NCBI GenBank assembly: GCA_946546815.1
Contig: CAMNOL010000003.1
Span: forward strand, 1 to 51,427
Length of the DNA stretch: 51,427 bases
Direction: 5' to 3'
Origin: an uncultured Oscillospiraceae bacterium
GTDB taxonomy: Bacteria > Bacillota > Clostridia > Oscillospirales > Oscillospiraceae
The position numbers and the translations under genes are program-made. Shown piece by piece: positions 23,715 to 26,456 of this stretch (within the stretch, counting starts at the first letter, position 1; each line of letters opens with the position of its first letter). The notes below the pieces were generated by a model. The model did no database searches. It saw nothing but the letters and a program-made list of their open reading frames with translations, and was not told the origin of the DNA.

Positions 23715-24320
23715 TCAATTCAGCCCCAGAATTTCCCGCAGCGCCGGGTAATCCTCCCGGAACACATACCCCTGCATCCCCTGGGCTCGGGCGCTGTCCA
23801 CGTTGTCCTCCCGGTCGTCAATGAAAAAGCACTCCGCTGGGCACAGGTGATAGCGCTCCAGCAGCCGCTGGTAAATCTCCGGCTCCGGCTTGAGCAGCAG
23901 CTCCTGGCAGGAGACCACTGCGCCGTCAAAGTAATCCAGCGGAGAAAAGTTGTTAAAATAGGTGAAAAACAGGTCAGAAGCATTGGAAAGAATGTAAATG
24001 CGGTAGCCGGCCTGTTTGCAGTCCCGGACAAATTCTTTTGCGCCGGGCAGAGGCTCCATGCAGAAATCCCAGTGGAAGCAGCAGTTTTTCAGGGCGCTTC
24101 GGTGGGCCTCCGGTACTCTGTCCCGGATCAGGCCGTAGCGGTCCCCGTCTTTGATGAGCCCCCGGTCCGCCATCAGCCATTCCGGCGCCTGGAACAGCTC
24201 CCGAAGAATGAGCTCCTTTTCCTCTTGGGAGGAGCAGAAGCGGTCCACCACCTTCTGGGGCTGGAAATCCAGCAGAACGTTTCCCATGTCGAACACGATA
24301 TTTTTGATCGTTGCTTTCAT
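23715..24320 (-). CDS. HAD family phosphatase (YihX-like)
   Basis: 201-aa HAD hydrolase. Motif I is VFDMGNVLLDF, with nucleophile Asp11; as in the YihX group the second Asp is replaced by Gly. Motif II is LSNAS, Lys of motif III lies in LLLKPEPEIY, and motif IV is FIDDREDN. YihX dephosphorylates glucose-1-phosphate, but the substrate here is not proven. ATG 24320 is chosen because GAGG ends 7 bases upstream; the longer upstream frame runs into the divergent RNA locus. It ends 60 bases before the trmN6 start region. Confidence 0.88.
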   Translation of the reverse strand: MKATIKNIVFDMGNVLLDFQPQKVVDRFCSSQEEKELILRELFQAPEWLMADRGLIKDGDRYGLIRDRVPEAHRSALKNCCFHWDFCMEPLPGAKEFVRDCKQAGYRIYILSNASDLFFTYFNNFSPLDYFDGAVVSCQELLLKPEPEIYQRLLERYHLCPAECFFIDDREDNVDSARAQGMQGYVFREDYPALREILGLN

Positions 24321-24372
24321 ATTCATACCTCGGCGGGAACACCGTTCCCTTCTGTTTGTTGCGTTCAAAAAA

Positions 24373-24401: not shown

Positions 24402-24480
24402 GGGGAAAGGCGCAGATTCCGCAACCTTTTGGCAGATGCGATTCAAGTCGAAAGTTTTTTGAAAAATATTAAAAAAGTGC

Positions 24481-24509
24481 TTGACATTTCTGCCGTCCGG
24501 TGGTAATAT
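24481..24509 (+). promoter_or_regulatory. Strong promoter of the orphan RNA unit
   Basis: Perfect TTGACA (24481-24486), 17-base spacer and TAATAT (24504-24509); an overlapping TATAAT (24507-24512) also exists. Transcription should begin near 24516-24520. Confidence 0.88.
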
Positions 24510-24625
24510 AATGTCAACATAAGAAAAGGAAACATCCTTTTCAAGAATCTTAAGAACAGGAGGACACGCCAAAGAACAAGTGAAAACGGCAGCTGTACCG
24601 TGTAAGCAGCAGACAGTTTCCACCT

Positions 24626-24712
24626 CATCCACTTGAAAGGGTGATGCGTTATGATTGGTAACAGGGCAACAATCAAGTAACGCAGGAGGTACAGTCCCAT
24701 GTACAGGTAAAT
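24626..24712 (+). repeat. RNA module, copy 1 (87 nt)
   Basis: Begins with hairpin CATCC (24626-24630)/GGGTG (24639-24643) with an 8-nt loop ending GAAA. A second hairpin follows, with TGCGTT (24645-24650)/AACGCA (24679-24684) and GATTG (24653-24657)/CAATC (24670-24674), then AGGAGGT and GTAC/GTAC (24689-24692 and 24701-24704). Two mini-ORFs fit in it: 24651-24680 (MIGNRATIK) and 24699-24710 (MYR), each preceded by a purine-rich site. Confidence 0.75.
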
Positions 24713-24736
24713 TTTGAAACGTTCCTTCCGCCATTC

Positions 24737-24823
24737 CATCCAGATGAAAGGATGATGCGCCATGATTGGTAAACTTCAAACCGACAAATGACGCAGGAGG
24801 TACGGTCCCATGTACAGGTAAAT
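24737..24823 (+). repeat. RNA module, copy 2 (87 nt)
   Basis: Aligns with copy 1 without gaps, about 70 of 87 bases identical by hand count, starts 111 nt apart. The first hairpin is CATCC (24737-24741)/GGATG (24750-24754), where a U-G pair of copy 1 becomes U-A. TGCG (24756-24759)/CGCA (24792-24795), TTGG/CCGA and GTAC/GTAC (24800-24803, 24812-24815) are kept. Mini-ORFs occur at the same offsets: 24762-24791 (MIGKLQTDK, TGA stop instead of TAA) and 24810-24821 (MYR). Confidence 0.75.
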
Positions 24824-25016
24824 CTTTTTGAACCATCTCAGCTTTCCGATGTACCCAGGAGGCGAGGCTTTATGAAACTCGTACTTTTGATTATTTGAAC
24901 ACCGGGAGAAAGGAATGAGTCCAAAGGACAACGAAAGCCAGCCATCAGTGACGGCTCAGAAAAATAGTCCTGACAACGCAAGAAAGAGGTAACGACCCAT
25001 GGACATGGAAAATCTG

Positions 25017-25057
25017 AAGTGACCCGACGAGAGGTTGAATCGTCGGGTCACTTTTTT
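25017..25057 (+). terminator. Strong intrinsic terminator of the orphan RNA
   Basis: Perfect 14-bp stem AAGTGACCCGACGA (25017-25030) and TCGTCGGGTCACTT (25040-25053), ending in a run of T. Confidence 0.96.
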
Positions 25058-25156: not shown

Positions 25157-25426
25157 ATGGAACAACACGGTTGGTGGGTCTATATTCTTCGGTGCGGGGA
25201 CGGTACCCTGTACACGGGCATGGCGGCGGACGTGGAGAAACGGGAACAGGTTCACAATTCCGGCAAGGGCGCCAGATACACCCGCAGCCGCCTGCCGGTG
25301 CAGGTGGTCTACCGGGAACCCTGCGCCAGCCGGGGCGATGCCCTGCGCCGGGAGGCGGCCATCAAGCGCCTGACCCGTCAGGGAAAGCTGGAGCTTGTGG
25401 AAAGTCTGTCAAACAGTAACAAATAG
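25157..25426 (+). CDS. GIY-YIG domain protein (UPF0213, YazA-like)
   Basis: 89-aa single-domain GIY-YIG nuclease-fold protein. VYILRCGDGTLYTGMA is the GIY-YIG core variant, followed by the conserved HNSGKGARYTRSRLPV and an REAAIKRLTRQGK region. Bacillus YazA is encoded between the trmN6-like gene yabB and rsmI; here it lies about 1.5 kb from trmN6 on the opposite strand, separated by the YihX-like gene and the orphan RNA. Function of the family is not established; DNA or RNA strand cleavage is presumed. Weak AAGGAA-type binding site before ATG 25157. Confidence 0.92.
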   Translation: MEQHGWWVYILRCGDGTLYTGMAADVEKREQVHNSGKGARYTRSRLPVQVVYREPCASRGDALRREAAIKRLTRQGKLELVESLSNSNK

Positions 25427-25571: not shown

Positions 25572-26456
25572 ATGAAAAAGATCATTGCAATGGTGCTTGC
25601 GCTGCTGACAGCTCTGTCCGCCTCCGGCATTGCCTTTGCCGACGGCGCCGGAACCGACAGGGGATACCTGGTGCTGGGAGAGGACCTGAACAAAGAGGAG
25701 AAGCAGACGGTGCTGGAGTTCCTGAAGGTGGAGCATGAGGATGACTACAAGGTCAGCTACACCACCAACCAGCAGGAGCACGACGCCTTTGACAGCTACC
25801 TCAGCCCCAGCGTGGTGGGCTCCCGGGCGCTGTCCTCCATCCTGCTGGTACCCCAGAAGAAGGGGGCAGGCATCTCCGTTTCCTCCTACAATATCACCTA
25901 CTGTACGGTGGAAATGTATCAGAATGCGCTGATTTCCGCCGGGGTGAAGGACGTATCCATTTCCATCGCCGCGCCCTATCCCGTCTCCGGCACCTGCGCG
26001 CTGGTCAGCGCCATGAACGCCTATTCCACCATGTCCGGCAAGAAGATCGACAAAGATTCCGCAGACGCTGCGGTGGATGAGATCGTCACCACCGGCAGCA
26101 TCGGAGACGCCATCGGCAGCAACGACACCGCTGCAGAGCTGATCGCACTGCTGAAGCAGAAGATGCTGGAGGAGAATATGGACGAGAGCCAGCTCTCTCC
26201 CGCCATTGACCAGGCATGTAAGGAGCTGGGCGTTTCGATTACAGATGAGTTGAAGCAGGAGATCATCGACCTGCTGATGAAGATCAAAAATACGGACATT
26301 GATGTGGACGCGCTGGCAAAGCAGGCGTCCGGGCTGTACGACAAGGTCAGCGGCACCATGAAAAAGCTGGACATCACACCGGAAAAAGCCATGGGCTTTT
26401 TTGAGCGTCTGATCCAGTGGGTGCTGAATCTGCTGAACGGGCTGAAAAAATCGTAA
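25572..26456 (+). CDS. Secreted DUF1002 family protein
   Basis: 294 aa with a clear signal peptide (MKKIIAMVLALLTALSASGI... cleavage likely after residue 23, AFA/DG). The mature part matches DUF1002 proteins of Firmicutes: the segment IAAPYPVSGTCALVSAMNAY (about residues 134-153) is characteristic, with an alpha-helical C-terminal half. No enzymatic motif or anchor was seen, so it is probably released or loosely wall-bound. Function unknown. AAAGGAG precedes ATG 25572, and an upstream extension of the frame is not supported. Confidence 0.88.
   Translation: MKKIIAMVLALLTALSASGIAFADGAGTDRGYLVLGEDLNKEEKQTVLEFLKVEHEDDYKVSYTTNQQEHDAFDSYLSPSVVGSRALSSILLVPQKKGAGISVSSYNITYCTVEMYQNALISAGVKDVSISIAAPYPVSGTCALVSAMNAYSTMSGKKIDKDSADAAVDEIVTTGSIGDAIGSNDTAAELIALLKQKMLEENMDESQLSPAIDQACKELGVSITDELKQEIIDLLMKIKNTDIDVDALAKQASGLYDKVSGTMKKLDITPEKAMGFFERLIQWVLNLLNGLKKS

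Follow-up and report, generated by a model that had tools for sequence, protein, structure and literature searches.

Known peptide-coding and ribosome-binding RNAs

Dual-function and peptide-coding small RNAs such as VcdRP, SR1-SR1P and SgrS-SgrT are stand-alone short transcripts with their own promoter and terminator and a small open reading frame (ORF). The peptides SR1P and SgrT are longer than 6–10 residues. ROOL, GOLLD, OLE, HEARO and raiA are RNAs several hundred nucleotides in length that are also transcribed independently, and the bar minigenes are sites of phage lambda whose over-expression leads to depletion of tRNA. The peptide of VcdRP has 29 residues. Short RNAs that encode peptides and whose function is unknown are an established kind (PMC6429828). 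The bar minigenes are named among the reference titles of another paper (PMC8012679). In the cry3A leader of Bacillus thuringiensis, a Shine-Dalgarno sequence close to the 5′ end (STAB-SD) could hold the 30S subunit and act as a block to RNase J1 (PMC4113751).

The RNA family described here was found in a window of 51,427 nucleotides, the whole stretch of DNA that was analyzed, from an uncultured bacterium of the Oscillospiraceae (contig CAMNOL010000003.1). Like the dual-function small RNAs, it has its own promoter and terminator, as predicted from the sequence, and a conserved small ORF under purifying selection (weak for the nine-residue ORFs of the genus). It differs from them in its peptides of 6–10 residues, a separate minigene of 2–4 codons, a stop codon inside the terminator stem and arrays of ORFs. 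As in STAB-SD, a Shine-Dalgarno sequence lies close to the predicted 5′ end; however, that of cry3A shields a long mRNA without initiating translation, whereas that of the family precedes a minigene in most order- and class-level loci and the coding part is tiny. The bar minigenes share with the family very short ORFs with Shine-Dalgarno sequences, but the minigenes of the family are found repeatedly in cellular genomes, and their codons vary. Compared with ROOL, GOLLD, OLE, HEARO and raiA, the family is without a gathering-score match and is defined by micro-ORFs rather than by an ornate fold.

Organization of the unit

A first-pass annotation of the window had proposed a promoter with a 17-nt spacer and a terminator with a 14-bp stem and a T run. 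Both were confirmed (Table 1), and the stretch between them looks, by sequence prediction, like the independent transcription unit that had been assumed. The promoter matches 10 of 12 consensus positions and an AT-rich stretch (24455–24476) lies just 5′ of it; the 901-bp region contains three promoter-like sites, compared with 0.9 expected from shuffles. The terminator was read directly, as the scanner used permits loops of up to 8 nt and the structure is therefore absent from its list. The neighbours are the ones named earlier, a divergent HAD gene and a downstream GIY-YIG gene.

Table 1. Features of the unit and of the genes around it (positions in the window)
Feature	Position	Strand	Details and basis
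HAD hydrolase gene	23715-24326	-	Divergent from the unit
Sigma-70-type promoter, TTGACA-17-TAATAT	24481-24509	+	TTGACA 24481-24486, TAATAT 24504-24509; promoter scan
Shine-Dalgarno mini-hairpin site	24562-24583	+	GG...CC-A, then AAG-AAC-AAG-TGA; by-eye comparison
Hairpin element common to paralogues	24586-24612	+	AGCUG-NNCCG-...-CAGC type; by-eye comparison, no statistics
Module 1, extended hairpin around micro-ORF	24626-24715	+	MIGNRATIK and stop, 24651-24680; repeat and ORF scan, alignment A1
Module 1, 3′ part	24684-24689; 24699-24710	+	AGGAGG, then mini-ORF MYR and stop; ORF scan, A1
Module 2 with micro-ORF	24737-24826	+	MIGKLQTDK and stop, 24762-24791; repeat and ORF scan, A1
Module 2, 3′ part	24795-24800; 24810-24821	+	AGGAGG, then mini-ORF MYR and stop; ORF scan, A1
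AGGAGG and micro-ORF	24857-24898	+	MKLVLLII and stop, 24872-24898; ORF scan, by-eye equivalents in L006, L007 and L011
Terminal micro-ORF	24999-25022	+	MDMENLK; TGA 25020-25022 within terminator 5′ arm; ORF scan, genus equivalents
Intrinsic terminator, 14-bp stem and T run	25017-25057	+	Arms 25017-25030 and 25040-25053, 9-nt loop GAGGTTGAA, T run 25052-25057; read from sequence
GIY-YIG gene	25157-25426	+	Downstream of the unit
DUF1002 gene	25572-26456		Next after the GIY-YIG gene

The two modules had been given a length of 87 nt, which is nearly right: two copies are present, forming one direct-repeat family, with a length of 90 nt, 80% identity and a spacing of 111 nt, and a looser third part lies 3′ of them. 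The statement that no normal protein is encoded misses the micro-ORFs with Shine-Dalgarno sequences. Six of these are predicted in the window copy, which in this respect is an array variant. Other ORFs in the unit are MRYDW and MRHDW, which overlap the module ORFs, two TTG-started frames of 20–21 codons, and MSPKDNESQPSVTAQKNSPDNARKR (24915–24992), the last being left uncounted because its ATG is replaced by CTG in L011 (genomes, contigs and loci are numbered with G, C and L). The mini-hairpin site near the 5′ end is the apparent counterpart of the 5′ minigene found at order and class level, with AAG replacing the AUG.

Occurrence of the family

Three models were used in the searches, R1 for the module, R2 for the terminal part and R3, a broader one from 31 sequences including order-level ones. 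All three were built from ORF-bearing sequences, so that the finding of ORFs is favoured. Five units were found with R2 in the genome of the window, on contigs C3 (the window), C13, C39, C30 and C19, the other three rows of this search being opposite-strand matches; by DNA similarity, relatives were found on C13 and C39. Another genome of the genus has a copy that is 81% identical to that of the window over 602 nt, with a GIY-YIG gene just downstream (G027:C37). DNA-level matches at E ≤ 0.001 were found in 22 of the 32 genus genomes, the own genome included, and five of these match only in the promoter region (G001, G008, G013, G022 and G031). R2 matched in 31 of the 32 at E ≤ 0.1 and in all 26 genomes that are at least 90% complete; with stricter filters and E ≤ 0.001 the count was 29, with G001, G007 and G030 giving no match.

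At higher ranks, the counts for R2 and R3 were taken at E ≤ 0.001 with the own genome included. In the order, R2 matched 29 of 295 genomes (18 of 148 genera) and R3 matched 46 (28 genera). R3 further matched 18 of 341 genomes in the class Clostridia (13 of 203 genera) and three of 309 in the phylum, two of which are weak matches outside the class, and R1 gave two weak matches beyond the genus (G440 and G535). The distribution through Clostridia is patchy. The unit had been called an orphan, a term that does not hold for a family with five units in one genome and a range from the genus to the class. In Vescimonas fastidiosa MM35, a unit with an R3 score of 78.6 bits lies between a TetR-type gene and spoVAC, at a site with no annotated feature; its ORF is MMLDIKSEG with the stop UAG and its minigene is MT. 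Across the family, units are about 0.2 to 1.4 kb long with both ends kept.

Comparison with known RNA classes and mobile elements

On scanning the window with Rfam 15 at the gathering score, only 5S rRNA and two tRNAs were found, near the left end and far from the unit. Twenty loci of the genus gave no hits and 20 loci of the order gave nine (seven tRNAs, Gut-1 in L163 and 6S in L164), none over a unit; L164, one of these 40 related loci, was judged a false positive of the family search. Hence, the unit is not a tmRNA, RNase P RNA, 6S, SRP RNA, ROOL, OLE, GOLLD, HEARO or raiA RNA as modelled in Rfam, in line with the earlier impression that known classes are absent. A permissive scan of the window unit gave noise only, and one of L188 gave eight weak hits, all over the terminal cassette and far below the cut-offs. 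In the literature search, which covered open full texts with few subscription journals and without bioRxiv, no description of such RNAs was present among the matches listed, and four peptide strings of the family did not occur in the open full-text literature searched. The first-pass interpretation thus stands as far as it concerns an independent unit, the lack of an Rfam class and an RNA or peptide system; the orphan status does not, and what had been seen as organization consists largely of tiny ORFs and their Shine-Dalgarno mini-hairpins.

A patchy spread with several copies per genome, some of them near each other (G518 and G320), is also what a mobile or selfish repeat, such as a MITE-like element or a phage RNA, could produce in place of a cellular gene. 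This reading is considered very improbable. Two degenerate patterns had no exact match in IMG/VR, where divergent copies would escape them, and blastn of the class-level unit L188 against 50,697 phage records gave no match. Moreover, copies in different genomes share neighbours and the sequences show coding and pairing constraints, as described below. Plasmid searches matched the 861-kb replicon of Vescimonas fastidiosa, and a match to a Clostridiaceae plasmid was weak (E = 0.1) and probably due to chance.

The terminal micro-ORF and the terminator stem

The terminal cassette of the genus was studied in 85 units, obtained from 107 model matches over 85 loci: for each unit a single coding-strand match was kept, and 22 opposite-strand (palindrome) matches were dropped; the units G005:C51 and G003:C49 are left out. 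A terminal ORF of 6–10 codons with a Shine-Dalgarno-like sequence and a stop at the terminator arm is present in all 85, a count that leans towards ORFs because the model was built from such sequences. The stop lies fully within the 5′ arm in 84 cases and partly so in L012, in which the stem is damaged. ATG is the start codon in 78 cases, TTG in six and GTG in one, and the stop is TGA in 77 and TAA in eight. At order and class level, a script found the terminal ORF in 46 of 48 loci (stops TGA 28, TAA 15, TAG 3), this set leaving out L164 as a false positive, L180 and L183 as members of the genus, and L199–L201; the two misses are L158, where the stop is lost, and L191, where the ORF is present by eye. 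The cassette there has the form AGAAAGAGAGG..AUG(AUG)UUAGAUAUCAAG.., with the consensus peptide MLDIKSEQK and the stop in the terminator. For the whole family, the consensus of the terminal micropeptide is M-x-L-D-[IFT]-K-x-E-x-K, with 6–10 residues; MIGNRATIK, MIGKLQTDK and MDMENLK of the window are without the LDxK core. The peptides are mostly hydrophilic in look, MKLVLLII of the window being an exception. Type I toxin-antitoxin systems, for comparison, combine a hydrophobic toxin ORF with an antisense RNA that overlaps it; the opposite-strand transcript noticed near units of the family is a divergent one, described below.

In alignment A5, 98.1% of the pairings in the terminator stem are standard, and 15 of its 17 pairs show two-sided changes. 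The number of double-changed cells was 107, against 26.2 in shuffles, none of 500 of which was as high, and slid versions of the stem gave at most 23. The second base of the stop codon is paired as GC in 22 cases, AU in seven and GU in two, and the third as AU in 29, GC in one and UA in one, the last being L158 with its lost stop. UGA, UAA and UAG thus interchange while the compensated pairing of the stem is kept. In paralogues of the genus the loop motif AGGTTGAA is seen again on different stems, and it was considered as the functional core of the family; this was rejected, as other paralogues carry other loops. Its constancy among the selected loci is no proof because the motif was the search key, and among 250 family genomes only two, which belong to the genus, have the exact loop pattern.

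Coding constraint was expressed as pN/pS across the distinct ORFs of each set, with shuffled columns as the control; relatedness is uncorrected here as in the pairing tests. For class-level ORFs, the ratio was 0.41 for nine residues (20 sequences; other frames 1.79 and 1.24; 0 of 500 shuffles as low) and 0.40 for ten (17 sequences; 1.08 and 1.36; 1 of 500). In the genus, it was 0.55 for the ten-residue terminal ORFs (22 sequences; 1.22 and 1.49; 1 of 400), with 0.47 in their M.LD subset (18 sequences; 6 of 400), and the signal was weak for those of nine residues (0.82; 20 sequences; 1.30 and 0.90; 19 of 400). The ORF of the internal modules gave 0.34 (17 sequences; 2.23 and 1.42; 0 of 400). 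The micropeptide therefore appears, from these substitution patterns, to be under selection as an amino-acid sequence.

Seryl-tRNA synthetase was found in 11 of 12 genomes searched (L204–L214), and in eight of these 11 it starts with MLDIK, like the class-level MLDIKSEQK. Nucleotide mimicry of its gene was considered and is not supported, since the Shine-Dalgarno context, and often the codons, differ by eye from those of the RNA in the same genome.

The modules

Alignment A1 of 29 modules describes an extended hairpin in which GGAU pairs with GUCC and UGYGUUA with UAACRCA. Two-sided changes were found in three pairs (3 of 500 shuffles as high) and ten cells were double-changed (0 of 500), while further pair types, one of five measures, were no better than shuffles (95 of 500). 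The ORF of the module has 9–10 codons, with AUG in the 5′ arm and UAA or UGA in the 3′ arm. It encodes MKLDFKSAIK-like peptides in many relatives, where the window has MIGNRATIK and MIGKLQTDK, and its stop is directly followed by AGGAGG and a mini-ORF (MYR, MYS, MYN or MNSLA).

Promoter, 5′ minigene and interior

A TTGAC..TA...T promoter pattern lies upstream of the unit in all 30 related genus loci examined. In one contig of the genus (L039 1164–1339, minus strand; G027:C45), the same AT-rich TTGACA promoter type precedes tRNA-Leu and tRNA-Met. The sharing of this promoter type with tRNA genes suggests stable-RNA-type expression of the family in the genus.

At order and class level, the unit starts with a promoter, followed in most cases by a 5′ Shine-Dalgarno mini-hairpin and a minigene of 2–4 codons, then by a variable interior and the terminal micro-ORF. 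The mini-hairpin, of GGGUGAUACC or GGUACAGUCC type, lies about 30–35 nt 3′ of the –10 hexamer, so that a Shine-Dalgarno sequence is located near the 5′ end of the transcript, its position being taken relative to the predicted –10. The minigene consists of AUG, one to three further codons and a stop (MYR, MYK, MRK, MRN, MKI, MEE, MAN, MF). It was picked by pattern in 39 of 46 loci, with two picks misplaced (L155 and L172); of the seven loci without a pick, L157 and L168 have one by eye. Four codons or fewer were found in 34 of 37 minigenes, compared with 34.5% of 255 background ATG ORFs from the same regions. What is kept in the minigene is where it lies and how short it is, not its peptide.

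GGA-rich hairpins resemble the sites of the translation repressor CsrA, and the repeated AGGA/GGA sites in small hairpins of the family would fit a sponge of the CsrB/CsrC type. A match to PF02599 was found in none of the 32 genus genomes, against three of 14 control genomes. With csrA absent from the genus, a CsrA sponge was rejected there, and for the family it is exceedingly improbable.

Some units are long, at about 0.8–1.4 kb from promoter to terminal cassette (L015, L020, L022, L023 and L024, also L090, L091, L094 and L096). By eye, the start and end of the interior are complementary in L015 and L020 (GATGGCCCCC/GGGGGCCATC and ATAGTCCCC/GGGGACTAT), as if they closed a large structured RNA. 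At order level, L162, L163, L171, L174–L176 and others share an element like TTTGTAYAAAATTNCATATTG, which overlaps the –35 region and extends upstream of it; its sharing suggests a common operator. A strict pattern of this element was found in 12 of 39 loci.

Up to about 330 nt upstream of order- and class-level units, a divergent sigma-70-type promoter was observed on the opposite strand (e.g., L171, L163, L167 and L198), followed by GUUGGG within about 12 nt and, in many loci by eye, by an intrinsic terminator, so that a tiny divergent transcript is predicted. By a strict pattern, it was present in 18 of 46 loci. In one of 20 loci scanned, a match to Gut-1 RNA (RF01706) lies just downstream of the divergent promoter (L163 1052–1126, minus strand), for which reason the divergent transcript of that locus may be, or contain, Gut-1 RNA.

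Genomic context

A stop codon within the terminator arm has a geometry that would allow a ribosome to disturb termination. The micro-ORF could, therefore, be the leader peptide of an attenuator, in which a ribosome at the terminal stop covers the terminator and causes read-through into the downstream gene, in the window the GIY-YIG gene, which also follows the copy at G027:C37. Among 47 order- and class-level loci, however, the next downstream ORF (at least 70 codons, called mechanically) is co-directional in only 22, on which ground the attenuator was rejected. Neighbour clusters present in at least three loci comprise one of four loci, with mixed strands, and two of three loci, which are near relatives by sequence; no widely recurring gene family follows the unit, and in G018 and G020 the unit and its neighbour are convergent. 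An attenuator is accordingly very improbable. Within the genus, six other long orthologues adjoin a DUF1002-like gene, and the units of C13 and G027:C103 both lie upstream of an acyl-ACP thioesterase gene. The mixed orientation and the few recurring neighbours indicate a stand-alone unit, with a degree of local synteny within the genus. A unit of a different subclass (L095 1217–1456; G004:C10) lies beside a GIY-YIG gene that is 56% identical to that of the window, in convergent orientation.

Proposed function and significance

It is rather probable that the stretch constitutes a gene of its own, whose short and probably well expressed RNA would be a micropeptide mRNA stabilized by ribosome docking. 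In the proposed scheme, a housekeeping-type promoter would produce the RNA, and a 30S subunit or ribosome would then dock at the 5′ Shine-Dalgarno mini-hairpin and shield the 5′ end from RNase J, by analogy with STAB-SD. Ribosomes would translate a micropeptide of 6–10 residues from the 3′ micro-ORF and stop inside the basal part of the terminator hairpin. Array variants, to which the window copy belongs, would multiply the micropeptide ORF by means of their modules, each copy lying just before a mini-ORF. This scheme draws on the recurring promoter, the kept start, frame and stop of the ORF, pN/pS values below 1, the compensated stops, the short and variable minigenes and the absence of a fixed neighbour. 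A length of 6–10 residues leaves no room for a signal sequence, and an intracellular partner is therefore the first guess for the peptide.

The main rival is a ribosome-docking or decoy RNA, for which the binding or translation of short sites would matter, whether by capturing ribosomes, by protecting a cargo RNA or by causing drop-off at minigenes; the peptide would then be a by-product. It would account for minigenes whose peptides vary (MYR, MRK, MEE, MKI, MAN, MF) while their shortness is kept, for the 5′ Shine-Dalgarno site of the window, which is kept without an AUG, and for units in which the ends persist over a range of 0.2 to 1.4 kb. L191, a nearly minimal unit, consists of little beyond three MFR minigenes and the terminal MTLDIKNEQK. 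However, the micropeptide has a pN/pS of 0.34–0.55 in four of the five main sets (the fifth, genus nine-residue ORFs, being at 0.82), and the LDxK core, which pure docking would not need, recurs class-wide. A docking or decoy RNA is thus considered fairly unlikely, and the micropeptide mRNA stabilized by docking is preferred.

More tentatively, and with considerable doubt, the family may represent a new RNA architecture of Clostridia. This would be a cellular RNA flanked by two micro-ORFs at which ribosomes dock, one of 2–4 codons at the 5′ end and one of 6–10 codons that ends inside the terminator, with exchangeable interiors ranging from three minigenes to more than 1 kb and with self-multiplying ORF arrays; its micropeptide would be among the shortest genetically encoded products.

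Gene finders and RNA-family pipelines alike can easily overlook a gene with a possible product of nine residues, kept in many genera of one class. If translated, such a gene would lie near the lower size limit of genes; the microcin C gene, with seven residues, is shorter still. The exchange of UGA, UAA and UAG with restored pairing of the terminator is an unusually clear sign that translation and transcription termination share the same bases. If the micropeptides are made, it becomes testable whether they function as products or the RNA is kept alive by their translation.
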